Position numbers and translations under genes: made by a program. 46,330 bases of DNA from an uncultured Ruminococcus sp. (GTDB lineage: Bacteria; Bacillota; Clostridia; Oscillospirales; Acutalibacteraceae): positions 1 to 46,330 of the forward strand of contig CACYPV010000030.1 in the NCBI GenBank assembly GCA_902776375.1. Direction: 5' to 3'. The notes beneath the pieces were generated by a model. It saw nothing but the letters and a program-made list of their open reading frames with translations, ran no database searches and had not been told where the DNA came from. Position 1 is the stretch's first letter. Each line of letters starts with the position of its first letter. Below, one piece after another: positions 19,263 to 39,592 of this stretch.

Positions 19263-20453
19263 CTATTTCAAGATAAATTCCTTTTTGCCTTCCGTCAGAT
19301 CGCGCCAAACCGGTGAGAAGCTCCTGAGATGCGCCACTACCTCTTTGACGGATCCAATAATATAATCAGCTTGCTCGCGGGTAATATCCTCGCCGATACT
19401 AAGTCTTAATGAGCCGTGCGCTACATCGTGTATCCTGCCAATAGCAAGCAGCACATGACTCGGGTCGAGCGCGCCCGAGGTGCAGGCGCTGCCCGAGGAA
19501 GCGGAAATACCCTTTTGGTCAAGCAGGAGCAAAATTCCCTCGCCCTCGATTCCCTCAAAGCTGAAATTGACGTTGCCGGGGAGCCTTTGGGATGCGTCGC
19601 CGTTGAGCGCGCTGTGCGGTATCTCGGACAAGCCTTTGATAATATAGTCGCGGATCGCCGATATATGCGCGTTGTTTTGTTCCATGCTTGTGGCGGCTTC
19701 CTTCAGCGCGGCTGCCATCGCCATAATGCCGGGAAGATTCTCCGTTCCGGCGCGTTTGCCGCGCTCCTGTGCGCCGCCCTCAATCAGGTTTTGCAGGACG
19801 ATTCCCTTGCGCGCGTACAAAAAGCCCACGCCCTTGGGACCGTGGAATTTATGCGCCGAGGCGGAGAGCATGTCGATGTGCTGCGCCTTGACGTCGATCG
19901 GCAGATGACCGACCGCCTGAACCGCGTCGGTGTGGAAGAGAACGCCGTGCTTCCGGCAAATCTCGCCGATCTCGGCGATTGGCTGAATGGTGCCGATCTC
20001 GTTGTTGGCGGTCATGATCGTGACGAGGCAGGTGTCCTCGCGGATGGCGGCTTCCAATTCATCCAATATGATGATTCCGTTGTCATGAACGGGCAGGAGC
20101 GTGATTTCAAAGCCGTTCTTTTCAAGCTTATTCAGCATGTGGAGGATCGCGTGGTGCTCAAACGCGCTTGATATAATATGTGTTTTGCCCTGTTTCTTGC
20201 CGTTTAGTGCGGTGGTAAGCAGCGCCTGATTATCCGCTTCGCTGCCGCCCGAGGTAAAGATGATCTCACGTGGGCTCGCATTGATCACGGCGGCGATTTC
20301 CTCGCGCGCTTCCTCTAACTTTTCCTTCGCCTTCTGACCGATGGTGTACAGGCTCGACGGATTACCCCACCAATTCCGCATACCCTCTGTCATCGCCTCA
20401 ATAGCCGCCTCGCTCATTTTAGTGGTGGCGGCGTTGTCCGCGTATATTTGCAT
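19263..20453 (-). CDS. nifS: cysteine desulfurase NifS/IscS
   Basis: This 396-aa PLP enzyme releases sulfur from cysteine for Fe-S assembly. It shows YADNAATTKM at the start, the PLP-binding lysine K202 in SASAHKFHGPKGVG and the persulfide cysteine C324 in SSGSACTSG. It shares a strong promoter with iscU and is divergent from an Rrf2 regulator. Clostridial nifS-nifU pairs serve general Fe-S biogenesis. About 120 bases of structured leader precede the ATG. Confidence 0.95.
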   Translation of the reverse strand: MQIYADNAATTKMSEAAIEAMTEGMRNWWGNPSSLYTIGQKAKEKLEEAREEIAAVINASPREIIFTSGGSEADNQALLTTALNGKKQGKTHIISSAFEHHAILHMLNKLEKNGFEITLLPVHDNGIIILDELEAAIREDTCLVTIMTANNEIGTIQPIAEIGEICRKHGVLFHTDAVQAVGHLPIDVKAQHIDMLSASAHKFHGPKGVGFLYARKGIVLQNLIEGGAQERGKRAGTENLPGIMAMAAALKEAATSMEQNNAHISAIRDYIIKGLSEIPHSALNGDASQRLPGNVNFSFEGIEGEGILLLLDQKGISASSGSACTSGALDPSHVLLAIGRIHDVAHGSLRLSIGEDITREQADYIIGSVKEVVAHLRSFSPVWRDLTEGKKEFILK

Positions 20454-20575: not shown

Positions 20576-20609
20576 ATTATAATCATATTCGCCTACCGTG
20601 TCAATAGGT
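20576..20609 (-). promoter_or_regulatory. nifS-iscU promoter with CCTA-N9-TAGG operator
   Basis: On the minus strand TTGACA (20599-20604) and TATAAT (20576-20581), both consensus, are 17 bases apart. The inverted repeat CCTA-N9-TAGG (20592-20608) overlaps the -35 box, a position suited to repression. The same motif recurs at 25370 and 30668. Confidence 0.8.
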
Positions 20610-21247: not shown

Positions 21248-22180
21248 TCAGTCTGCAAAAAGGGGCGTCGAGAGATAACGGTCGCCTGTGTCGGGGAGGA
21301 TGACGACAATGGTCTTGCCCTTGTTTTCCGGACGCTTGGCAAGCTCGATCGCCGCGAATGTCGCTGCTCCGGATGAAATGCCTACCAATACGCCTTCGCT
21401 TCTGCCAATCAGCTTGCCGGTCGCAAAGGCGTCCTCGTTGGAAACGGGAATGATCTCGTCGTAAATATCGGTGTTGAGCACGTCGGGAACGAAGCCTGCG
21501 CCGATACCCTGAATTTTATGTGCGCCTGCGACGCCCTTGGAAAGAACGGGAGATGTCTCCGGCTCAACAGCGACAACCTTTACATCGGGCTTCTGTGATT
21601 TCAGATATTCGCCCGTGCCGGTCACGGTACCGCCGGTGCCGACGCCCGCTACAAGGAAATCCACCTCGCCGTCGGTGTCCTCCCAAATTTCGGGACCTGT
21701 CGTCGCCCTGTGAACGGCGGGGTTCGCGGGATTGACGAACTGACCGGGAATAAAGCTGTTCTCGATTTCCTTAGAAAGCTCCTCAGCTTTGGCGATAGCG
21801 CCCTTCATACCCTTGGTGCCGTCGGTGAGTACAAGCTCTGCGCCGTATGCCTTCATCAACTGGCGGCGCTCAACGCTCATCGTCTCGGGCATAGTGATGA
21901 TCAGTCTGTAACCCTTTGCTGCGGCGACGGAAGCGAGTCCGATTCCTGTGTTGCCCGATGTCGGTTCGATCAAAACGCTGCCGGGTTTGATAAGACCCTT
22001 GCTTTCCGCGTCCTCGATCATCGCCTTTGCGATCCTATCCTTGACGCTGCCGGCAGGATTGAAGTATTCGAGTTTTGCGACGATTTTCGCCTGCAAGCCG
22101 AGTTCCTTCTCGATGTGCGTCAATTCAAGCAAAGGGGTTTTGCCAATCAATTGGTCTGCTGTTTGATAAATCTTACTCAT
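21248..22180 (-). CDS. cysK: cysteine synthase A (copy 1)
   Basis: This 310-aa PLP enzyme makes cysteine from O-acetylserine and sulfide. The PLP lysine is K47 in NPAGSVKDR, the substrate loop is [10 protein letters not shown], and the glycine-rich phosphate cup is [10 protein letters not shown]. In Bacillus CysK also binds CymR to form the repressor; here cysK is divergent from an Rrf2 gene, which fits that pairing. GGAGG lies in the short leader. It shares most motifs with cysK2 at 30783. Confidence 0.97.
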
Positions 22181-25412: not shown

Positions 25413-26630
25413 ATGCTTCTCTGCTTCAACAATTCATATATAAACCGGCTTGCGCAGACGGCTGAGTTCGGTATCGAGCGCGAGAGCCTGCGCGTCACCT
25501 CTGACGGTAAACTTGCGCAGACAAAGCACCCCTTTGTCGGTGATCCGCATATCGACCGCGATTTCTGTGAAAATCAGGTTGAGATTATCGGCGACGTTTT
25601 CAACGATCCTGCCGACCTGATCTGCCAGCTCGGTGGTCTGCTCAATGAGATAGACGTTGAGCTTGTCAAAAACAACGAGTTGCTCTGGGCGTTTTCCAAT
25701 CCACCGAAATTCGATTCGGAGGATGAAATACCCGTCGCCCGGTTCCACGGCGCACAGCGCGGTAAGTCGGAATACCGTTACTATCTCGCGGAAAAATACG
25801 GAAAAACAAAAATGTTGTTTTCAGGAATCCATCTTAACATTTCCTTTACCGAGAGCCTGCTGCAAGCCGCTTTTCAAGAGAGCGGCGCTGAGATATACAC
25901 CGCATTTAAGAATGATTTTTACCTGCGCCTCGCAAAACGCCTGACGCAGTATGCGTGGCTGGCGGTTTATCTCACCGCTGCAAGCCCTGTCGCGGACGCT
26001 TCTCTCGGCATCAAAAGCAACGTTTATTCCTCGATCCGCTGTTCGGAGCACGGCTACTGGAACCGATTTACGCCCATCCTCGACTATTCAAGCCTGAAAA
26101 AATATATCCGCAGTATCGCACGCTATATCGTAAACGGCGACCTGAAAGCCGCTTCCGAGTTGTATTATCCCGTCCGTGTTAAGCCGCGCGGCGTAAACAG
26201 CTTGGAAACGCTCTTACATAACGGCGTGAACCATTTGGAGCTGCGCGTCCTCGACGTCAATCCGTTGACGCGCACGGGCATTTTTTCAGAGGATATCCGC
26301 TTTATCCACCTGCTTCTGCTCTGGCTTTCAAGTCTGCCCGAATTTGATTTTGACGAAGAAAAGCAGATACAGTCGATAGCGGACGTCAAAGCCGCCGCCG
26401 TTTTCGGCAATGCGGAAATCAAGCGGAGAGCCAAAGAAACGCTTGAGGAAATCAAACGCTTTACCCGGCAATATTTCCCGCATTTTTTGCCCGTCATCAA
26501 CTATCAGCTCAATAAACTGACCGACGGCAATAGCTACGCCGAGATCGTCAGCCGCAAATTTACCGATGGCTACATGAAAAAAGGTATTGCGCTTGCAAGG
26601 CGGTACCAAGGAGGTGAGCGCAGTGTGTGA
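25413..26630 (+). CDS. gshA: glutamate-cysteine ligase (GshA/GshF-N type)
   Basis: This 405-aa ATP-dependent ligase joins the gamma-carboxyl of glutamate to cysteine. The N-terminus FGIERESLRVTSDGKLAQT is the family hallmark, followed by DFCENQVEIIG, HLNISF and, near 270, NHLELRVLDVNPL. It lacks the C-terminal ATP-grasp domain of bifunctional GshF, and no glutathione synthetase gene is in the window, so the product may stop at gamma-glutamylcysteine. TTTGGAGG precedes the ATG, and its last codons overlap the amidotransferase gene. Confidence 0.9.
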   Translation: MLLCFNNSYINRLAQTAEFGIERESLRVTSDGKLAQTKHPFVGDPHIDRDFCENQVEIIGDVFNDPADLICQLGGLLNEIDVELVKNNELLWAFSNPPKFDSEDEIPVARFHGAQRGKSEYRYYLAEKYGKTKMLFSGIHLNISFTESLLQAAFQESGAEIYTAFKNDFYLRLAKRLTQYAWLAVYLTAASPVADASLGIKSNVYSSIRCSEHGYWNRFTPILDYSSLKKYIRSIARYIVNGDLKAASELYYPVRVKPRGVNSLETLLHNGVNHLELRVLDVNPLTRTGIFSEDIRFIHLLLLWLSSLPEFDFDEEKQIQSIADVKAAAVFGNAEIKRRAKETLEEIKRFTRQYFPHFLPVINYQLNKLTDGNSYAEIVSRKFTDGYMKKGIALARRYQGGERSV

Positions 26631-30254: not shown

Positions 30255-30461
30255 ATGAAGATCATTATTTCGGGAAAAAGAAAAGAAGTGACCGATGGGC
30301 TGACTGTCGCACAACTGATCAACAGCGAAACGAACGGCAGACCGCGCTATGTTTCAGTCGTTACACGAAAAGAGCTGTTGCTTGAAGGCGGATTTAATGA
30401 CGTTGTGCTTCAAGACGGCGATACGGTTGAATTCATCTATTCGGGAGAAGAAGAATGCTAG
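30255..30461 (+). CDS. ThiS/MoaD-like protein lacking the GG tail
   Basis: This 68-aa protein has the ubiquitin-like ThiS pattern: MKIIISGKRKEVTDGLTVAQ at the start and NDVVLQDGDTVEFIYSG near the end. Sulfur carriers end in Gly-Gly, which becomes a thiocarboxylate. Here the chain ends GEEEC, so the activating enzyme could not work in the usual way. Either the tail is decayed or the C-terminal Cys has a new role. A 15-codon frame overlaps its end. GGAG lies ten bases before the ATG. Confidence 0.65.
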   Translation: MKIIISGKRKEVTDGLTVAQLINSETNGRPRYVSVVTRKELLLEGGFNDVVLQDGDTVEFIYSGEEEC

Positions 30462-30502
30462 CCGGTGAAGTGATCAAAGAATTGACGAGTTTTGAAAGAT
30501 AA
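30455..30502 (+). pseudogene. 15-codon frame, possible remnant after ThiS-like gene
   Basis: ATG at 30455 overlaps the ThiS-like stop and reads MLAGEVIKELTSFER before TAA. It resembles the first residues of a longer protein that a deletion removed; a ThiF-type partner would be expected here. Very short, low support. Confidence 0.25.
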
Positions 30503-30505
30503 ATC

Positions 30506-30545
30506 AAACAGCCGGGTGTTTCAGTTGATAAACACCCGGCTGTTT
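30506..30545 (+). terminator. terminator of the gshA-cysE-thiS operon
   Basis: AAACAGCCGGGTGTTT (30506-30521) pairs with AAACACCCGGCTGTTT (30530-30545), sixteen perfect pairs, then Ts. Confidence 0.9.
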
Positions 30546-30623
30546 TTGTACGGAATAATCGGTTTGTCAAGAGTCTATACCCGGCAATAGAAATAATATA
30601 TAACTGTGATGTCAAAAAACATC

Positions 30624-30685
30624 TTGACAAATGAAGTGAAATATGAGATAATATGTTGCAGAATAAACCTACTAAGTATATAGGT
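30624..30685 (+). promoter_or_regulatory. cysK2 promoter with ACCTA-N9-TAGGT operator
   Basis: TTGACA (30624-30629) and GATAAT (30647-30652) are 17 bases apart. The inverted repeat ACCTA-N9-TAGGT (30667-30685) lies just downstream of the expected start. It is the most symmetric member of the three-site operator set. Confidence 0.78.
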
Positions 30686-30707
30686 ATTATAGATTAGAGG
30701 AATGATT

Positions 30708-30740
30708 ATGACCCTTTTTTATCTTTTTAGGCGATGTTGA
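30708..30740 (+). CDS. 10-aa leader peptide ending in Cys
   Basis: AGAGG (30696-30700) lies seven bases before an ATG that reads MTLFYLFRRC and stops. The single Cys codon TGT (30735-30737) is the last sense codon. The stop codon TGA is the first part of TGACTC, which can pair with the ribosome site of cysK2. The arrangement is that of a translational attenuator sensing charged Cys-tRNA; the peptide itself is probably of no other use. Confidence 0.6.
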   Translation: MTLFYLFRRC

Positions 30741-30776
30741 CTCTGTTGGATATCAATATGATTTAAGAAGGAGTCA
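30738..30776 (+). promoter_or_regulatory. hairpin masking the cysK2 ribosome site
   Basis: TGACTC (30738-30743) pairs with GAGTCA (30771-30776). The 3' arm covers the AAGGAGTC ribosome site (30768-30775) of cysK2. A ribosome stalled at the Cys codon directly upstream would cover the 5' arm and free the site. Six pairs is modest, with G-U extension possible on both sides. Confidence 0.55.
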
Positions 30777-30782
30777 GTTATT

Positions 30783-31706
30783 ATGAGAACATATAAGAAA
30801 ATTACCGACTTGATCGGTAACACACCGCTTTTGGAGCTCGAAAGTATAGAAAAAAACACAGGAGCGATTGTATTCGGCAAGCTCGAATATTTTAATCCCG
30901 CCGGAAGCATTAAGGACAGGATCGCCAAGGCGATGATAGACGACGCGGAGGCTAAAGGAATATTGAAGCCGGATTCCGTTATCGTGGAGCCGACCAGCGG
31001 CAACACGGGCATCGGTCTTGCCGCCGTAGCCGCAGCGAGAGGCTATCAGGTGATTCTTACCATGCCGGAAACAATGAGCGTGGAACGCAGAAATCTTCTG
31101 AAGGCATACGGCGCGAAGGTCGTTCTGACCGAGGGTGTTAAGGGAATGAAAGGTGCTATTCAGAAAGCACAGGAGATCGCGGCTGAAAATGCGCACAGTT
31201 TTATTCCGAGCCAGTTCACGAACAACGCCAACCCCAAGGCACATTACGATACAACCGGTCCCGAAATCTGGAACGATACCGATGGCAGGATCGATATTCT
31301 TGTCGCGGGCGTCGGCACGGGAGGAACCGTTTCGGGCGTGGGCGAATATCTAAAGAATAAGAACCCTAATGTTCAGGTCGTCGCCGTGGAGCCTTCCGGC
31401 TCTCCTGTCTTGTCGGGAGAAAAGCCCGGACCGCATAAGATTCAGGGCATCGGCGCGGGGTTTGTTCCCGAAACACTCAATACCGACGTATATGATGAAG
31501 TTATTAAGGTAACGAATGAGGACGCATTCGCGACAGGCAGAACACTTGCCAAGCATGAGGGCTTGCTTGTCGGGATCTCATCGGGGGCGGCTGTTTGGGC
31601 TGCGGCTCAATTGGCAAAGCGTCCCGAAAATAAAGGAAAAATCATCGTGGCAATTTTGCCCGACACGGGAGAAAGATATCTTTCAACTCCCATGTTTTCA
31701 GAATAA
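30783..31706 (+). CDS. cysK: cysteine synthase (copy 2)
   Basis: This 307-aa O-acetylserine sulfhydrylase has the PLP lysine K44 in [19 protein letters not shown] and [10 protein letters not shown]. It is a close paralog of the copy at 21248, with [12 protein letters not shown] at the end. Unlike copy 1, it sits behind a Cys leader peptide and an operator, and the next leader begins 12 bases after its stop. Copy 1 may be the regulatory partner of CymR, and copy 2 the starvation-induced enzyme (inference). Confidence 0.95.
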
Positions 31707-31718
31707 GAGGTACAAAAA

Positions 31719-31847
31719 ATGATTATCAACAGCAATGCAAAGTTCAATACTGTTTATACCGAAGTCGGCGTAATTGGCTTCGGCAGCATTGCTGCGCCCT
31801 TCTGCGCCCGTTGTATGTGTTGTGTTGTGAACACAGGCGGCAGTTAA
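31719..31847 (+). CDS. 42-aa Cys-rich leader peptide
   Basis: AGAGG precedes the ATG by eight bases. The 42-codon frame has its only cysteines clustered at 29, 32, 34 and 35 (FCARCMCCVV), near the end. The stop (31845-31847) lies just after the ACAGGCGG segment (31833-31840) that forms one arm of an antiterminator. Clustered regulated codons close to an antiterminator arm are the hallmark of amino-acid attenuators such as trp and his. No function of the peptide itself is expected. Confidence 0.72.
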   Translation: MIINSNAKFNTVYTEVGVIGFGSIAAPFCARCMCCVVNTGGS

Positions 31848-31909
31848 GGGGAATCAATGAGATAAATCCTGAGCCGTCTGTCTGCATTTGCAGCGCAGGC
31901 GGTATTTTT
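31833..31909 (+). promoter_or_regulatory. cysteine attenuator before the luxS-mccBA operon
   Basis: The segment CCGTCTG (31874-31880) can pair two ways. With ACAGGCGG (31833-31840) it makes an 8-bp antiterminator. With CAGGCGG (31896-31902), extended by CTGC/GCAG (31882-31885 with 31890-31893), it makes a terminator followed by TATTTTT. A ribosome finishing the leader covers 31833-31840 and allows termination; a ribosome stalled at Cys codons leaves it free for antitermination. Confidence 0.72.
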
Positions 31910-31932
31910 ATGCCTGAACGGAGGTAAAACTG

Positions 31933-32853
31933 ATGATAGAAACAAGGGAAAGCGTTACCGCAAAGCTCTGTTCCTTTGCCCGTGCTTTTCATTCCAATAT
32001 CGAAAGGAATAAGATTTTCGACGATTATCTCGCTTATGATTTGATGGGAAAGGACGAGTTTGAAAAAATCGGTCAGCTGATACAAAATGATTTCGACGCG
32101 GAAAAATCGGATAAAAACTACACCTTCGCGTCAAATAAGATTGCAAACTGCATCAACCGCTATATCACGCCGATCCCGCTTTCGAGAATCGCTTTTGCAG
32201 AGAATAAGTTGGACGCGTTTGCGCAGCATTGCGGTAAATGTCAGTATGTGATTTGCGGAGCAGGTATGGATACCTTCGCGTTTCGTAACGATAACCCCGA
32301 TATCAAGGTGTTTGAGCTTGACCACCCCGACACGGGAAGGTATAAGCGGCGCAGAATCAGGGAGCTTGAGTGGATCATTCCCGATAACCTTACCTTTGTA
32401 CCGATTGATTTTTCAAAGGACGACATGAGCGAAAGACTGCTCGTTTCAGGCTATGATCCCGAAATCCCGACGTTCTTTGCCATCCTCGGCGTGTCATATT
32501 ATCTGACGCTATCAGTCTTTGAGGATACGATTCGAAAAATCAGCTCGCTGTGTAAAGCGGAAAGCAAGGTGGTTTTTGATTATCCCGACGAAACCACACT
32601 GCGCGGTCGAAGCACCGAGCGTGTCCATATGCTTGCGAGTATCACCGAAAAGCTCGGTGAAAAAATGTTGCACGGTTATTCTTACAAGGAGATATATGCT
32701 GTGCTCGAACGTCACGGCTTTGAGATAGAGGAGCATGAAACGCCGCAGATGATACAAATGCATTATTTTGAGAACCGCAGCGATATGGCTGCATTTGAGA
32801 ATATCAATTTTATTTTGGCTTGCAAAGAAAAAATACCCGGGGAGGTTGCTTGA
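31933..32853 (+). CDS. SAM-dependent methyltransferase (LCMT-like)
   Basis: This 306-aa protein resembles the TIGR00027/LCMT methyltransferases. It has an N-terminal helical lid, then VICGAGMDTFAFRN (SAM loop, near 102-115), VFELDHPDTGRYKR (acidic SAM contact) and FFAILGVSYYL. It produces S-adenosylhomocysteine. Its stop overlaps the luxS start (TGATG). In Bacillus the mccAB operon also carries a methyltransferase (YrrT), and this may be its counterpart. No nucleosidase (mtnN) gene is in this operon. The methyl acceptor is unknown. Confidence 0.82.
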   Translation: MIETRESVTAKLCSFARAFHSNIERNKIFDDYLAYDLMGKDEFEKIGQLIQNDFDAEKSDKNYTFASNKIANCINRYITPIPLSRIAFAENKLDAFAQHCGKCQYVICGAGMDTFAFRNDNPDIKVFELDHPDTGRYKRRRIRELEWIIPDNLTFVPIDFSKDDMSERLLVSGYDPEIPTFFAILGVSYYLTLSVFEDTIRKISSLCKAESKVVFDYPDETTLRGRSTERVHMLASITEKLGEKMLHGYSYKEIYAVLERHGFEIEEHETPQMIQMHYFENRSDMAAFENINFILACKEKIPGEVA

Positions 32854-33314
32854 TGAAAACAATAGCTAGCTTTACAGTTAATCACGACAGGCTTGAAAAA
32901 GGAATGTACCTTTCGCGTGTTGACGGAGATGTTGTGACATATGACGTCAGAATAAAAAAACCGAACGGAGGAGATTATCTCGGCAACGGCGAGCTTCATA
33001 CGATTGAGCATTTGTTCGCTACCTACGCGCGCAACAGCGAAGTGTCGGACGATGTTGTGTACGTCGGTCCAATGGGCTGCCGCACAGGGTTTTATCTGCT
33101 TGTCAGAGACAGCGTATCTCATGACCGTGCTGTCCGTCTGGTAAGAGACAGCTTGGAATATATCGCTGGCTTTGAGGGGGAAATACCCGGAAGCAAACGC
33201 ACGGAGTGCGGAAACTATGCCGAGCATGATTTGAACGCAGCAAAGCAAACGGCAAGAGATATGCTCTCTGTTTTGAAAAATTGGAATGAAAATGATTTGG
33301 ACTATAAGGAGTAA
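32853..33314 (+). CDS. luxS: S-ribosylhomocysteine lyase LuxS
   Basis: This 153-aa metalloenzyme splits S-ribosylhomocysteine to homocysteine and the AI-2 precursor. The metal ligands are H49 and H53 (HTIEH) and C119 (TECGN); the catalytic cysteine is C76 in GPMGCRTGFYLL. The ATG at 32853 overlaps the methyltransferase stop. Here it recycles homocysteine for the transsulfuration enzymes that follow. Confidence 0.97.
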   Translation: MKTIASFTVNHDRLEKGMYLSRVDGDVVTYDVRIKKPNGGDYLGNGELHTIEHLFATYARNSEVSDDVVYVGPMGCRTGFYLLVRDSVSHDRAVRLVRDSLEYIAGFEGEIPGSKRTECGNYAEHDLNAAKQTARDMLSVLKNWNENDLDYKE

Positions 33315-33319
33315 TCAAC

Positions 33320-34477
33320 ATGGCAAATTATAAAAATATAGAATCCGCTCTGATTCACGGCGGAATATCAACAGACAAATTTACGGGAGCGGTCAATGTT
33401 CCGATCTATCAGACCTCGACCTATCAGCAGACCGGCTTGGGCGAGGAGCCAAAGTGGGAGTATTCGCGCACGGGAAATCCGACCCGTGCCGCGTTGGAAG
33501 CGTTGATCGCAGAGCTTGAGGGCGGCAAGGCGGGCTTTGCCTTCGGTTCGGGCATGGCAGCGATAACGGCGGTTCTCAGTTTGTTTGAATCGGGCGATAA
33601 GGTTCTGATTTCGAGCAACGTATACGGCGGCACCTTCCGTGTGCTCGACAAGGTGTTCAGTAATTTTAACATCGGCTATTCGATCGAGGACACCACCGAT
33701 TTAGCCGCGCTGGAAAGTAAAATCACCCCCGAGGTCAAGGCGATCCTCGTCGAAAGCCCGGCAAATCCTCTGCTGACGGTCACAGACCTCGCGGCGGTTG
33801 CAGCTCTGGCGAAAAAGCACGGTATTCTCTCAATTGTCGATAATACCTTTATGACTCCGTACCTCCAAAGACCGATCGAGCTGGGCGCTGATATCGTCGT
33901 ACACAGCGCGACAAAATACCTCGGCGGTCACAGCGACGTTGTAGCAGGCTTGGTTGTCGTCAATGATGACGCGCTCGCGCAAAAACTCGCATTTATCCAG
34001 AATTCAACAGGCGGCGTGCCGGGACCCTTCGACAGCTTTTTGCTGATCAGAGGAATCAAGACGCTCGGCGTTCGCCTTGACCGCCATGTAGAGAACGCCG
34101 AAAAAGCGGCTGAATATCTGCAAAACCACAGGGCGGTAAAAAAGGTTTACTACCCCGGACTTCCCGACGCGCAGGGCTATGAGATCAACAAGCGGCAGGC
34201 GAAAAACGGCGGAGCTATGATTTCCTTTGAGCTGTACGAGAACTACAATATCAAAAAATTCTTCAAGGCGTTAAGGCTTGTTGCGCTTGCGGAGAGTCTC
34301 GGCGGCGTGGAGAGCCTTGTATGCCACCCTGCCAGCATGACGCACGCCGCGATCCCTTACGAGGTGCGCCAAAGGATCGGCATTACCGACGGCTTGATCA
34401 GACTGTCCGTCGGCATCGAGAGCATTGACGACATTCTTGCCGATTTGGACCAGGCAATAGCGGAAAGCGAGGAATAA
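33320..34477 (+). CDS. mccB: cystathionine gamma-lyase / MccB-like
   Basis: This 385-aa PLP enzyme of the Cys/Met metabolism family shows YEYSR-like WEYSRTGNPTR, GSGMAAITAV, ESPANPLL and the PLP lysine in HSATKYLGGHSD. It most likely splits cystathionine to cysteine, or homocysteine to sulfide. The start is five bases after luxS, and mccA follows after two bases. The gene order luxS-mccB-mccA supports the methionine-to-cysteine assignment over a synthase role. Confidence 0.9.
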   Translation: MANYKNIESALIHGGISTDKFTGAVNVPIYQTSTYQQTGLGEEPKWEYSRTGNPTRAALEALIAELEGGKAGFAFGSGMAAITAVLSLFESGDKVLISSNVYGGTFRVLDKVFSNFNIGYSIEDTTDLAALESKITPEVKAILVESPANPLLTVTDLAAVAALAKKHGILSIVDNTFMTPYLQRPIELGADIVVHSATKYLGGHSDVVAGLVVVNDDALAQKLAFIQNSTGGVPGPFDSFLLIRGIKTLGVRLDRHVENAEKAAEYLQNHRAVKKVYYPGLPDAQGYEINKRQAKNGGAMISFELYENYNIKKFFKALRLVALAESLGGVESLVCHPASMTHAAIPYEVRQRIGITDGLIRLSVGIESIDDILADLDQAIAESEE

Positions 34478-34479
34478 AC

Positions 34480-35391
34480 ATGGCACTCTATCACGATATG
34501 CAGCAGTTGATCGGAAACACTCCGCTCGTAAAGCTAAATCACATTGATTTGCCTGACGGAGCGAATCTTTATGCAAAATTAGAGCTGTACAATCCTTCGG
34601 GAAGCGTTAAGGACAGGATTGGAAAATATATGATCGGGGACGCCGAAAAACGCGGAATACTCAAAAAGGGCGGCACGATCGTAGAGGCAACGGCAGGTAA
34701 TACCGGTCTCGGGATCGCCTTTGCCGCGCTGAACAAGGGCTATAGGATCATCTTTGTCGTTCCGACTAAATTTTCCGAAGAAAAGCAGACGCTCCTGCGC
34801 GCTTTGGGGGCTGAGATCATCAATACTCCCCGTGAGGGCGGTATGCTGGGCGCATGGGACAAGGCAGAGGAAATACGCCGTTCCATTCCCGGTGCGGTCA
34901 CGCTCGAACAGTTCAAAAACCAGGCGAATCCGCAGGCGCATTATGAAACGACGGGAAAAGAAATATTTGAGGATCTGAACGGTCAAATAGATTATCTTGT
35001 CGCAGGCGCGGGCAGCGGCGGCACCTATTCGGGCGTTGTCAGGTTTTTGAAAGAGAAAAACAAAAACATTACAGGTGTGCTTGCCGATCCCGTCGGCTCC
35101 ACGATGGGCGGCGGCGAGCACGGCGATTATAATATCGAGGGTATCGGCAATGACTTTATAGCCGACACCATGGATATGTCGCTTGTTGACAGGGTGGTCA
35201 AAATGACCGACGCAGAGGCGTTTGACGGAGCACGCGAGCTTGCGTCAAGGGAAGGCATCTTTGCCGGCTCTTCCTCGGGCGCGGCTCTGGCAGCGGCAAA
35301 AAAGCTGATCAACAGTGGGGCGAGGGGCAATATTGTCATTATTCTTCCCGATCGCGGCGACCGTTATTTTACAAAACATCTTTATGAATAG
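34480..35391 (+). CDS. mccA: cystathionine beta-synthase, O-acetylserine type (MccA)
   Basis: This 303-aa CysK-fold PLP enzyme carries the PLP lysine in NPSGSVKDR and the substrate loop VEATAGNTGLG instead of EPTSGNTG, which marks MccA-type enzymes that condense O-acetylserine or serine with homocysteine. AGAGSGGTYSG is the phosphate cup. It lies two bases after mccB, and the two complete reverse transsulfuration. Confidence 0.9.
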   Translation: MALYHDMQQLIGNTPLVKLNHIDLPDGANLYAKLELYNPSGSVKDRIGKYMIGDAEKRGILKKGGTIVEATAGNTGLGIAFAALNKGYRIIFVVPTKFSEEKQTLLRALGAEIINTPREGGMLGAWDKAEEIRRSIPGAVTLEQFKNQANPQAHYETTGKEIFEDLNGQIDYLVAGAGSGGTYSGVVRFLKEKNKNITGVLADPVGSTMGGGEHGDYNIEGIGNDFIADTMDMSLVDRVVKMTDAEAFDGARELASREGIFAGSSSGAALAAAKKLINSGARGNIVIILPDRGDRYFTKHLYE

Positions 35392-36271: not shown

Positions 36272-36367
36272 ATGACTACCTACGCAACAATGTGTATGAA
36301 TACCTTTATGTGTAAAATGCAGAAGGCGGTTTTCTGCGTTAAGGCATGCTGTGCGTTCCGAATGTGA
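36272..36367 (+). CDS. 31-aa Cys/Met-rich leader peptide
   Basis: AAAGGAG precedes the ATG by nine bases. Of 31 residues, five are Cys (8, 14, 22, 26, 27) and six are Met (1, 7, 9, 13, 16, 31); the peptide ends VKACCAFRM. The CC pair is 18 bases before the first arm of an antiterminator hairpin. The stop is followed within three bases by that arm. This matches attenuation by cysteine and perhaps methionine supply. Confidence 0.72.
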   Translation: MTTYATMCMNTFMCKMQKAVFCVKACCAFRM

Positions 36368-36369
36368 AG

Positions 36370-36425
36370 GGCATTTTGCGCTTCAACGAGAATGCCGGCG
36401 AGGGTGTGCCCACCGGCTATTTTTT
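36370..36425 (+). promoter_or_regulatory. cysteine attenuator of the transporter operon
   Basis: GGCATT (36370-36375) pairs with AATGCC (36391-36396) as antiterminator. GCCGG (36394-36398) pairs with CCGGC (36413-36417), with inner GGG/CCC, and ends in TATTTTTT as terminator. The two share bases 36394-36396 and exclude each other. A ribosome at the leader stop (36365-36367) would cover the first arm and favour termination. Confidence 0.7.
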
Positions 36426-36692: not shown

Positions 36693-36719
36693 TCATTGAC
36701 ACACAGAAAGGAAATCAAC

Positions 36720-37826
36720 ATGAAAACAAAAATCATCGCGGCTCTTCTTGCCGCCTCACTTTCAATAGCTGCATTTGCAGGCTGTAATACATCATCAGAC
36801 AGTTCAACTGCCTCTAAAGCTTCCGCAACAGCTTCAAACGGTGAAGCAAAGCTTGAAAAGACGACCTTCAACCTCGGTCACCTCAATTCCACCGCTCATC
36901 TGCTCGGATTTGTGGCAAAGGAGGAAGGATACTTTGAGGAAGAAGGACTCGACGTAACGCTTACACTGTTTTCTTCTGCGGCAGAGCTTTCAAGCGGATT
37001 GGAAAACGATAAGCTCGACGTTGCCTTCATCGGCTCCGTTCCTACGCTCACCTTCCAGAGTCAGGGTCACGACCTCACGATTTTCGGCGGTGAGATGACA
37101 AACGGTCACGGCTATGTGATAAAGCCTGAATTTGTCGATGGCAAGACTGATTGGGATGTTTCAATACTCAAGGGCAGAAACGTTGCTTCTGTTAAGAACT
37201 CCGTTCAGGACGCAGAGCTTCAAATCCTTTTGAAGGACAAAGGGATCGAGATCGGCGAGGGTGAGGACAAGGTAAACATCGTCTACTTTGACAGCCAAAA
37301 GGACGCCTACAACGCGCTCCAAAACGATTCGATCGACGCGGCTTCGGCGTATTCGCCCTACACCTCGCTTGCAGAGAGCCAGGGCTACAAGATCGTTTAC
37401 CGCTGCTCCGAGGAAAAGCTCCTCGAAAATCAGCCTTGCTGCCGTCAGGTAGCCGCTACCGAGTCGCTTGCAAAGTATCCAAATTCCTACAACGCTTTTG
37501 AGCGCGCGCTGATAAAGGCTTATAAGTTTACTCAGGAAAACAAAGAGCAGACCGTCAAGGACGTCAAAAAGTACATTGATATAGAGGAAAATCTGATCAA
37601 CACCGAGGTTTACGGCGGTTACGGTTCCTCTGTTCCCGACCCCGACAAGCAGGGTACGGTCACTCTGAAAAATTCGATCGTAGAGCTTGGCTATGCCGAG
37701 GATTACGATATCGACAAGCTGTATAATACCGATATCTATAAGAACGCTCTCGAAAGCCTGATAAAAGAAAATCCCGGCGACAAGGTATACGCCGAGCTTC
37801 AAAAGCACTTTGAAGAATTTGAATAA
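36720..37826 (+). CDS. ABC transporter substrate-binding lipoprotein (SsuA/NMT1-like)
   Basis: This 368-aa lipoprotein (lipobox AFAGC, Cys near 21) has the NMT1/SsuA fold: LGHLNSTAHLLGFVAKEEGY, FSSAAELSSGLENDKLDVAF and a C-terminal helical part. Relatives bind sulfonates, taurine, nitrate or thiamine precursors. AAAGGAAA precedes the ATG at 36720. Cysteine-dependent control favours an organic sulfur compound as ligand; the exact ligand cannot be read from sequence. Confidence 0.88.
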   Translation: MKTKIIAALLAASLSIAAFAGCNTSSDSSTASKASATASNGEAKLEKTTFNLGHLNSTAHLLGFVAKEEGYFEEEGLDVTLTLFSSAAELSSGLENDKLDVAFIGSVPTLTFQSQGHDLTIFGGEMTNGHGYVIKPEFVDGKTDWDVSILKGRNVASVKNSVQDAELQILLKDKGIEIGEGEDKVNIVYFDSQKDAYNALQNDSIDAASAYSPYTSLAESQGYKIVYRCSEEKLLENQPCCRQVAATESLAKYPNSYNAFERALIKAYKFTQENKEQTVKDVKKYIDIEENLINTEVYGGYGSSVPDPDKQGTVTLKNSIVELGYAEDYDIDKLYNTDIYKNALESLIKENPGDKVYAELQKHFEEFE

Positions 37827-37859
37827 GATATACTAAATTATAAACTGAGATGATCCTAT

Positions 37860-38672
37860 ATGAGCAAGATAGAGATAAACAATTTAACGGTTGACTATAC
37901 AGAAAAAAAGAACCGCTTTACCGCGCTTAAAAACGTCAGCTTTTCCATTGAGGACGGTGAGTTTGTCAGCGTTATCGGCTCAAGCGGCTGCGGCAAAAGC
38001 ACGCTGCTCAGCATTTTGGAAGGTATCAATACGCCGACAGCGGGCGAGATCCTTATAAACGGCGAGCCGATCCACGGCACCGGCACTGACAGAGGCGTTG
38101 TGTTTCAGCACTACTCGCTGTTCCCGTGGATGACCGCCAGAAAAAACGTTGCTTTCGGTATCAGGCAGGTCAACAAAGAGGCGAGCAGAACCGAACGCCT
38201 GAAAATCGCCGATGAGTTTTTGGAAAAGGTAGGACTCAACGAATTCAAAAACAAATATCCATCGCAGTTATCGGGCGGAATGCAGCAGCGCGTCGCTATT
38301 GCCAGAGCTTTGGCGATGGACACCGACATTCTCCTGATGGACGAACCGTTCGGTGCGATCGACGCGAAAAACCGCACCATTTTACAGGAGCTTCTGCTTG
38401 AGCTGTGGGAGGGCGACGGAACAAGCGCGAGAAAAACCGTTGTGTTTGTCACGCATGATATCGACGAGGCTATCCTGCTCTCGGACAAAATCGTGATGAT
38501 GACCGCGAATCCCGGTCAGGTGTACAGTGAGATCAAGGTTCCCTTCGATCGTCCGCGCAACCGAAGCGAGCTTGTTCAGACAAAGGAATACAATCAGTTC
38601 AGGAATAAGCTGCTGGCGATGTTCTACAGCGACATCGTCAGCAAGATCGGCGGAGACGAGGTGGTGCTGTAA
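37860..38672 (+). CDS. ABC transporter ATPase (SsuB/TauB-like)
   Basis: This 270-aa ATPase has Walker A GSSGCGKST (residues about 40-48), the Q-loop in VFQHYSLFPW, signature LSGGMQQR and Walker B ILLMDEPFGAID followed by VTHDIDEA. It drives the importer with the permease gene, whose ATG overlaps its stop (TAATG). Confidence 0.93.
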   Translation: MSKIEINNLTVDYTEKKNRFTALKNVSFSIEDGEFVSVIGSSGCGKSTLLSILEGINTPTAGEILINGEPIHGTGTDRGVVFQHYSLFPWMTARKNVAFGIRQVNKEASRTERLKIADEFLEKVGLNEFKNKYPSQLSGGMQQRVAIARALAMDTDILLMDEPFGAIDAKNRTILQELLLELWEGDGTSARKTVVFVTHDIDEAILLSDKIVMMTANPGQVYSEIKVPFDRPRNRSELVQTKEYNQFRNKLLAMFYSDIVSKIGGDEVVL

Positions 38673-39592
38673 TGACAATCAAAAAGAGATATCTCAGAGT
38701 CGTTCACGCGCTGTTTATCGTGCTTTTGCTGATTCAGCTTCTGCCTGATAAGCTCAGCGGCGATACCTACGCGCAGTACGTTATATGGTTTGCCGTCGGC
38801 GTTGAAGTGCTGACGCTCCTCGTATCCTCCTTTATCAAAAAGTCGGTCGGTTTGAATCTGTTTACGGATATCGTCAGCTTTATCTACGGCTTGCTGATCG
38901 CATGGACGTTGGCTACAGCCAAATTCAATCTGTTAAAGCCTGCGCTGTTCCCACCGCCCGGAAAGGTCTTTTGGAGAATGATCGGTGATTACGAAACGAT
39001 CATCACCAACATTTTCAGCTCCATCGGCATCATTTTGCAGGGCTATCTGCTGGCGCTGGTCATAGCGATCCCGCTCGGACTGTTTCTCGGGTGGAGCGCG
39101 AGACTCGGCAGCGCGGCAACCTACATTTCAAAATTTTTCGGCGCGATCCCGCCGATCGTTTATATCCCATACGGCATCGCCCTTTTGCCGACCTTCCGCT
39201 CGGTCTCGGTCTTCGTTATCTTTTTAGCGACCTTCTGGCCTGTTCTCGCCGGCACTATGAGCGGCGTTATGAATGTAGACAAAAAGACGATCGACTCCGC
39301 AAAGGTTTTAAATGTCGGAAAATTCACTATGCTGTTTTCCGTCATTCTCCCGGCGTCGCTGCAACAAATCTTTATCGGTTGCAACCAAGGGCTGACAGTA
39401 TCTTTCGTGCTTCTGACCTCGGCTGAAATGATCGGAGCACAAAGCGGCTTGGGTTATTACATCAAAAACTACTCCGATTTCGGAGACTACACCAGAACGC
39501 TTGTCGGCTTGATCGTTATAGGCATAGTGATCGTCGCGATCTCGTTTGCGTTCAATAAGATACAAAAATACCTGCTTCGCTGGAAGCACTGA
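38672..39592 (+). CDS. ABC transporter permease (SsuC/TauC-like)
   Basis: This 306-aa inner-membrane protein has about six to seven helices and the EAA-loop region ...VMNVDKKTIDSAKVLNVGKF typical of this importer class. Two N-terminal helices (LFIVLLLIQLLP and YVIWFAVGVEVLTLLV) precede the conserved core. It is translationally coupled to the ATPase. Confidence 0.92.
   Translation: MTIKKRYLRVVHALFIVLLLIQLLPDKLSGDTYAQYVIWFAVGVEVLTLLVSSFIKKSVGLNLFTDIVSFIYGLLIAWTLATAKFNLLKPALFPPPGKVFWRMIGDYETIITNIFSSIGIILQGYLLALVIAIPLGLFLGWSARLGSAATYISKFFGAIPPIVYIPYGIALLPTFRSVSVFVIFLATFWPVLAGTMSGVMNVDKKTIDSAKVLNVGKFTMLFSVILPASLQQIFIGCNQGLTVSFVLLTSAEMIGAQSGLGYYIKNYSDFGDYTRTLVGLIVIGIVIVAISFAFNKIQKYLLRWKH

Follow-up and report, generated by a model that had tools for sequence, protein, structure and literature searches.

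Control of cysteine genes in Bacillota is usually attributed to T-boxes and CymR. The yrrT-mtnN-mccA-mccB operon of Bacillus subtilis, which is under CymR, begins with a methyltransferase gene followed by methionine-to-cysteine genes, and we know of no Cys leader in it. Cys leader peptides have been described elsewhere. They were found ahead of cys operons of Mycobacterium and Propionibacterium acnes, and in Bifidobacterium longum ahead of cbs (Seliverstov et al. 2005; PMC1262725), a study that reports no conserved terminators for the Mycobacterium leaders. Canestrari et al. 2020 (cited through PMC9094748 and PMC13236596) presented mycobacterial leaderless ORFs as cysteine-responsive attenuators, and the uORFC-8-2 motif of Rhodobacterales is a predicted Cys attenuator with a terminator-like U run before cysS (PMC8632094). 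A leader peptide based on His precedes hisS/hisZ in bacilli (PMC2965389). A literature search with most subscription journals outside its reach found no Cys attenuator before luxS/mccBA or in Bacillota.

Here we describe a locus in DNA from an uncultured Ruminococcus sp. (the window, meaning the whole stretch of 46,330 nucleotides that was analysed) which we read, with high confidence, as a ribosome-mediated transcription attenuator that would use Cys codons as its sensor and gate the methionine-to-cysteine genes. The locus resembles trp-type attenuators in its leader ORF with clustered codons for the regulated amino acid, its antiterminator, its overlapping intrinsic terminator and its biosynthetic genes; unlike them, it relies on the Cys codon, it is sited behind cysK inside a likely operon (53 named loci) and a protector arm 1 is not established. 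The mycobacterial cys leaders share with it a short ORF and clustered Cys codons but differ in the reported lack of a conserved terminator hairpin, in their leaderless ORFs and in genes and phylum, whereas the uORFC-8-2 motif has two tandem Cys codons and is confined to cysS and Alphaproteobacteria, in contrast to an LCMT operon with 4–8 Cys per leader in the relatives examined here. The His leader of bacilli is likewise a leader-peptide attenuator in Bacillota, but for histidine and other genes. With the B. subtilis yrrT operon the locus has in common the methyltransferase-first order and a CymR-like palindrome, and it differs in carrying luxS and a methyltransferase of the LCMT type. Judged from sequence, it would thus be a known kind of device, in a new family and at an unusual position in the operon.

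All genes of the putative operon lie on the plus strand. The first, cysK (cysteine synthase A, 30783–31706; TIGR01139, 470.5 bits against a cut-off of 350.95), would be read before the attenuator. The first gene past the attenuator encodes an LCMT-type SAM-dependent methyltransferase (31933–32853; TIGR00027, Pfam LCM) and is followed by luxS, for S-ribosylhomocysteine lyase (32853–33314; NCBIfam/Pfam). Next come an mccB-like Cys/Met PLP enzyme of the cystathionine gamma-lyase type (33320–34477; best NCBIfam 558 bits, cut-off 594) and an mccA-like PLP enzyme of the cystathionine beta-synthase/CysK family (34480–35391; best NCBIfam 339 bits, cut-off 344), and because both score just under the cut-offs their names are based on family and gene order. 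Across relatives, cysK is found 1.0–1.4 kb ahead of LCMT in 54 of 80 named loci, with the leader in between in 53 of the 54. Where the leader is present (n = 70), mccB or mccA lies behind LCMT in 58 loci and luxS in 48, less than 1.5 kb of sequence being available there in nine. The preliminary description had set the attenuator ahead of the methionine-to-cysteine genes, which holds, and had made it the 5' leader of a luxS-mccBA unit, a part that we abandon since it stands behind cysK. Because the window and 53 of the 54 named loci share this position, the attenuator is most likely internal, splitting a single operon transcript.

The leader ORF (31719–31847, plus strand) starts 12 nt after the cysK stop (31706), is preceded by the Shine-Dalgarno-like AGAGGT, and consists of 42 codons and a TAA, with the peptide MIINSNAKFNTVYTEVGVIGFGSIAAPFCARCMCCVVNTGGS. 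Codons 29, 32, 34 and 35 are its only Cys codons, so that the cluster at 29–35 first proposed for this ORF is exact, and a gap of 9 nt separates the last of them from arm 2, the 5' strand of the antiterminator (ACAGGCGG, 31833–31840). Pairing analysis and folding further define, on the same strand, arm 3 (CCGTCTGT, 31874–31881), which is common to antiterminator and terminator, and arm 4 (CAGGCGG, 31896–31902), the 3' strand of the terminator, behind which the sequence continues as a U-rich tail (UAUUUUU, or TATTTTT in the DNA, 31903–31909). All coordinates originally given for these elements are correct. The arrangement thus combines clustered codons for the amino acid of the downstream genes, a terminator before the first structural gene and, directly behind the sensing codons, a mutually exclusive antiterminator.

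Folding of the window sequence supports both structures. RNA from 31860 on forms the terminator hairpin at -20.6 kcal/mol (z -3.9; equalled by 0/200 shuffles), and RNA stopping short of arm 4 (31825–31887) folds as the antiterminator at -20.5 kcal/mol (equalled by 3/200 shuffles). When arms 2–4 are all present the two are of near-equal stability, which suits control by the position of the ribosome. In the absence of a ribosome, RNA through arm 3 is predicted to retain the antiterminator, a departure from the trp case. Of the classical four-arm attenuator first proposed, arms 2, 3 and 4 are upheld by folds and by conservation of their pairings, and we consider these alone established; arm 1 is doubtful, as its pairing with arm 2 (CCCUUCUGCGCC : GGCGGCAGUUAAGGGG) shows in the whole-leader fold but the stability of the segment is matched by 73/200 shuffles (window only). 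A pattern-based terminator scan of the window did not report the attenuator hairpin, which it overlooked because the hairpin is bulged. A riboswitch of the T-box or SAM (S-box) type would be the usual device for genes of sulfur and amino-acid metabolism in this phylum, yet Rfam at gathering scores gave 0 matches in the window and 0 in 12 related loci; on this basis we reject a known riboswitch or T-box and give such an explanation almost no chance of being right.

The mechanism that we infer for the attenuator extends to ribosome stalling, Cys-tRNA dependence, read-through, the start site and the enzyme steps. RNA polymerase would start ahead of cysK, read this gene and then enter the leader. 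With ample Cys-tRNA, the ribosome would pass the Cys codons and cover arm 2; we propose that in the window a ribosome at the stop codon (31845–31847) sits over arm 2, so that the terminator wins. Arms 3 and 4 would then pair and transcription would end at the U tract, with cysK made and LCMT-luxS-mccBA not. With scarce Cys-tRNA, the ribosome would wait at the first Cys codons (29 or 32 in the window), leaving arm 2 free to pair with the emerging arm 3, and LCMT-luxS-mccBA would be expressed as no terminator forms. The LCMT-type enzyme would convert SAM to SAH, LuxS would carry the product on to homocysteine, and the mccA/mccB pair would lead from there to cysteine. Under this scheme cysK would be always on, and the methionine-to-cysteine genes would be on demand only.

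To see how widely the leader accompanies these genes, we searched genomes at several distances. A search with the leader peptide in 150 genus genomes gave 8 clear loci (E ≤ 8.4e-6), that of the window included, and a search with the LCMT protein found the gene in 14 of 161 genus genomes. All 14 carry a Cys leader, which is whole in 13 and truncated in G160, where the contig stops but the Cys cluster can still be seen. One of these leaders (G002) is the same as that of Ruminococcus bromii YE282 (FMUV01000014.1, L118), a different peptide (MNTILNYAVSKINNILSMSNNCCCIACCIKQGGADLLC) in whose locus the three arms are jointly altered to CAGGGCGG / CCGCCUUG / CAGGGCGG and a promoter-like sequence can be seen by eye ahead of the leader. 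In a family sample of 398 genomes, LCMT was present in 19 at E ≤ 1e-30; besides the window, the leader accompanied 7/7 close LCMTs (49–73% identity) and 0/11 distant ones (31–39% identity).

We also scanned named genomes with an LCMT alignment, which gave 157 relatives, and kept the best 80 loci, which partly overlap the genus and family samples. In 70 of these 80 loci an ATG frame no longer than 75 codons lies upstream and contains 3 or more Cys within 7 codons; this count exceeds the number of independent events because many of the loci are closely related. Examples come from Eubacterium oxidoreducens (MNNVNKCCCCLCCCNDTGG), Ruminiclostridium sufflavum and Lachnospiraceae MAGs, and the leader is present in 7 of 8 Treponema MAGs; two loci labelled as an Alphaproteobacteria MAG (L136, L142) may be misbinned. 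Among the ten remaining loci, two (L098, L120) have less than 300 nt upstream and three (L102, L140, L142) show looser Cys leaders by eye. In the other five of the 80 (L119, L126, L130, L141, L143) no Cys leader was seen; L126, L141 and L143 give no luxS, mccB or mccA matches within 4 kb behind LCMT, and L119 and L130 have mccB or mccA downstream. In a further locus (L052), a metK-like gene, named by reading its sequence, replaces luxS after a Cys leader and LCMT; its leader and terminator sequence is unrelated, although by eye GATTCGC : GCGAATC might form an antiterminator.

The Cys cluster is far more frequent than expected by chance. For this comparison we used the 78 loci with at least 300 nt upstream, stricter limits on position, 20 dinucleotide shuffles per locus and 1416 control windows drawn from other parts of these loci. 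A frame with 3 or more Cys in 7 codons was present in 70/78 loci, against 2.2% of the shuffles and 1.2% of the control windows, and with the threshold raised to 4 Cys in 7 codons the figures were 67/78, 0.13% and 0.28%; the cluster is therefore conserved in relatives (70 of 78 testable LCMT loci). Ala, which clusters next most often after Cys, does so in 24/70 leaders. Both Cys spellings are used, with TGT favoured in the leaders (TGT 250, TGC 122) and a TGT:TGC ratio of 131:190 in the LCMT genes. TGY occurs 372 times in frame and 118 and 232 times in the other frames of the leaders, a count on which we place no weight, the out-of-frame abundance being partly due to repeats in TGT runs.

The spacing between the cluster and arm 2 is narrow. 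Measured to the antiterminator core from the point where the cluster's first Cys codon ends, it has a median of 21 nt (IQR 21–24, range 18–45; n = 65, with L092, L093, L094, L105 and L129 left out), and at such spacing a ribosome stalled at that codon would leave arm 2 free, given the ribosome footprint. The distance from the stop codon to arm 2 ranges from -14 to +34 nt in the relatives (median 15), and since it varies, masking of arm 2 by a ribosome at the stop is not assured in some of them. A hairpin by itself would reduce downstream expression, so that a fixed partial terminator could set the cysK:LCMT ratio behind a leader frame present by chance; given clusters in 70/78 loci against 2.2% of shuffles, together with the narrow spacing to arm 2, we regard this explanation as extremely improbable.

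The leader might instead encode a functional Cys-rich peptide, metal-binding or modified, with a plain terminator behind it. The peptides are indeed Cys-rich, and within the genus the whole peptide is alike. Among 12 leaders taken from separate groups, however, likeness centres on the Cys run and on the part of the peptide that arm 2 specifies, and in the relatives the peptides measure 19–57 aa with variable Cys spacing. No NCBIfam or Pfam family was found above cut-off for the leader of the window or for those of three diverse relatives, and of two further leaders compared with NCBIfam only, one had no match and one a match at E 0.2, under the cut-off. A functional peptide with a plain terminator would moreover leave arm 2 and its pairing with arm 3 unexplained, and we consider it very unlikely.

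Both pairings of the attenuator are conserved with compensatory changes. The idea thus withstands the comparison that accompanied its first proposal, by which a Cys cluster or pairings lacking conservation in related genomes would have counted against it. A script assigned a terminator hairpin in 69/70 leaders, four of them wrongly (L093, L094, L105, L129), and missed one (L092), so that hairpin and U tract were placed correctly in 65/70; the arms are visible by eye in L092, L105 and L129, and L093, L094 and L105 have a weak U tract. Compared with shuffles of the arm 2 region, the arm 2:arm 3 duplex reached p ≤ 0.05 in 52/69 leaders and p ≤ 0.01 in 26/69. Taken alone it was non-significant in 17/69, three of which (L093, L105, L129) had the wrong hairpin; L094 passed despite the wrong hairpin chosen. 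Pairs were counted in 36 of 41 non-redundant leaders (L093, L094, L132, L136 and L137 left out), among which L118 and L113 are wrongly aligned, to the disadvantage of the pairings. In these 36 rows, 92.7% of antiterminator cells pair, versus 37–50% when one strand is slid by 1–3 columns, and 93.2% of terminator cells pair, versus 32–43% when slid. Double-sided changes are found in 4 of 8 antiterminator pairs and 3 of 7 terminator pairs.

Because the arms vary little, shuffling the 3' letters within columns is a harder control. Such shuffles pair on average 89.4% of cells for the antiterminator and 89.1% for the terminator, and the observed value beats 500/500 in both. The covariation score is 0.192 for the antiterminator versus 0.143 shuffled, and 0.242 versus 0.166 for the terminator, values never reached in 500 shuffles. 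The number of doubly changed pairs was reached by 3/500 shuffles for the antiterminator and 53/500 for the terminator; for the antiterminator, 48/500 shuffles had at least as many further pair types. An exact search for the arms (ACAGGCGG-N28-58-CCGYCTGT) matched 58 of 398 family genomes, as did its backwards control (also 58), so the search is uninformative on other gene contexts; in the genome G000 the attenuator of the window is the sole match.

These pairings also bear on whether Cys-codon stalling acts through Rho-dependent polarity or translation control, as proposed for actinobacterial cys leaders, with the hairpin incidental. The precedent is the Mycobacterium leaders, which reportedly have no conserved terminator hairpins (PMC1262725). 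Here, in contrast, hairpin and U tract were placed by script in 65/70 leaders and by eye in three more (L092, L105, L129), arm 3 pairs with arm 2 as well, and in the window the GGAGG ahead of LCMT falls outside the terminator hairpin. We therefore view such a route as very improbable.

We next consider the region before cysK. A candidate promoter of the unit (TTGACA-17-GATAAT with a TG before the second hexamer; 30624–30652, plus strand), identified by consensus match alone (11/12), is the sole plus-strand match in 30450–32050 and precedes cysK, in a region where both strands together give 3 promoter-like matches versus 2.6 by chance. Just past it lies the palindrome CCTACTAAGTATATAGG (30668–30684; CCTAY-N8-WAGG), whose likeness to CymR/Rrf2 operators leads us to presume a predicted site of that type, and a CymR-like repressor acting at the cysK promoter may form a second layer of control. 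Between the palindrome and cysK is a micro-ORF (MIMTLFYLFRRC*, 30702–30740, plus strand) which ends in the recurrent CGATGTTGA (Arg-Cys-stop). Both the CymR-like pattern and the CGATGTTG motif had been drawn from the sequences in which they were later counted, so the following enrichments are descriptive: CCTAY-N8-WAGG lies ahead of cysK in 24 of 31 loci examined (of 54; shuffle expectation 0.08 loci) and ahead of LCMT in 13 of the 23 loci that lack cysK and offer sufficient sequence (of 26; shuffle expectation 0.06), and a micro-ORF with the CGATGTTGA end stands within 160 nt before cysK in 34/51 loci, against 0.025 expected from shuffles. The micro-ORF loci are L064–L072, L076–L078, L081, L083, L084, L086–L091, L093–L097, L099, L101 and L102, together with L104, L105, L109, L111, L113, L114, L121, L128 and L132, and in some loci the end reads RCC or RCW. 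In L097 and L102 the micro-ORF precedes the attenuator leader without cysK, and in L074, L079, L092 and L100 CGATGTTGA terminates the attenuator leader itself. Perhaps the micro-ORF is a further Cys sensor ahead of cysK.

Other elements related to cysteine are present in the window and its relatives. A second Cys/Met-rich leader (MTTYATMCMNTFMCKMQKAVFCVKACCAFRM, 36272–36367, plus strand) is followed by a terminator-like hairpin (36394–36417) with its tail (36418–36425), has promoter-like and CymR-like sequence ahead of it by eye, and precedes a small Cys-rich ORF and an NMT1-like/ABC transporter set (36696–39592). This leader was found in 16/161 genus genomes at E ≤ 0.0011; its end, FCV(V/K)ACCA(L/F)RM, is kept in 14 of the 15 loci read, and two unrelated hairpins alternate behind leaders of this type (5 and 9 loci). 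L107 and L132 likewise have Cys/Met-rich frames after mccBA, and in a Treponema MAG (L137) a frame with a Cys cluster (MIIFFEKLVRENFRNGVMCCWCCTSSVGTL) and a terminator-like hairpin lie behind mccA, at +3087 from LCMT. When the window and the 80 named loci were scanned for additional leaders combining Cys codons with a terminator, only three candidates came out; the scan is insensitive, since it overlooked the leader at 36272–36367. The window also holds another exact copy of the CCTAY-N8-WAGG palindrome (20592–20608), just upstream of a minus-strand gene (19263–20453) that resembles a cysteine desulfurase when its sequence is read. The same sulfur cluster contains a glutamate-cysteine ligase gene (25413–26630; Pfam PF04262, E 5.7e-58), and a PALP-family cysK-type gene is located at 21251–22180 on the minus strand, the second such gene being cysK at 30783–31706 on the plus strand. 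It is possible, though we hold it only tentatively, that control by cysteine is layered, with a CymR-like operator, the Arg-Cys-stop micro-ORF, the internal attenuator and the 36272–36367 leader, and that Lachnospiraceae and Treponema acquired the attenuator together with the operon. Were this so, the ribosome would sense cysteine several times per cluster, once perhaps through arrest at Cys-stop.

Taken together, the sequence comparisons strongly support the leader, its Cys cluster, the spacing, the arms with their compensatory changes and the gene order. If the attenuator works as proposed, it would bring ribosome-stalling control by cysteine to Bacillota, with the methionine-to-cysteine route opened only at a shortage of Cys-tRNA, and the putative switch precedes these genes in dozens of other, related gut bacteria as well. 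Control of LuxS, and hence output of the autoinducer-2 precursor, becomes testable as a question of cysteine supply. Furthermore, given its occurrence among Clostridia of the rumen and gut, Ruminococcus bromii being one of them, and among Treponema MAGs, the leader could mark cysteine limitation in gut communities.
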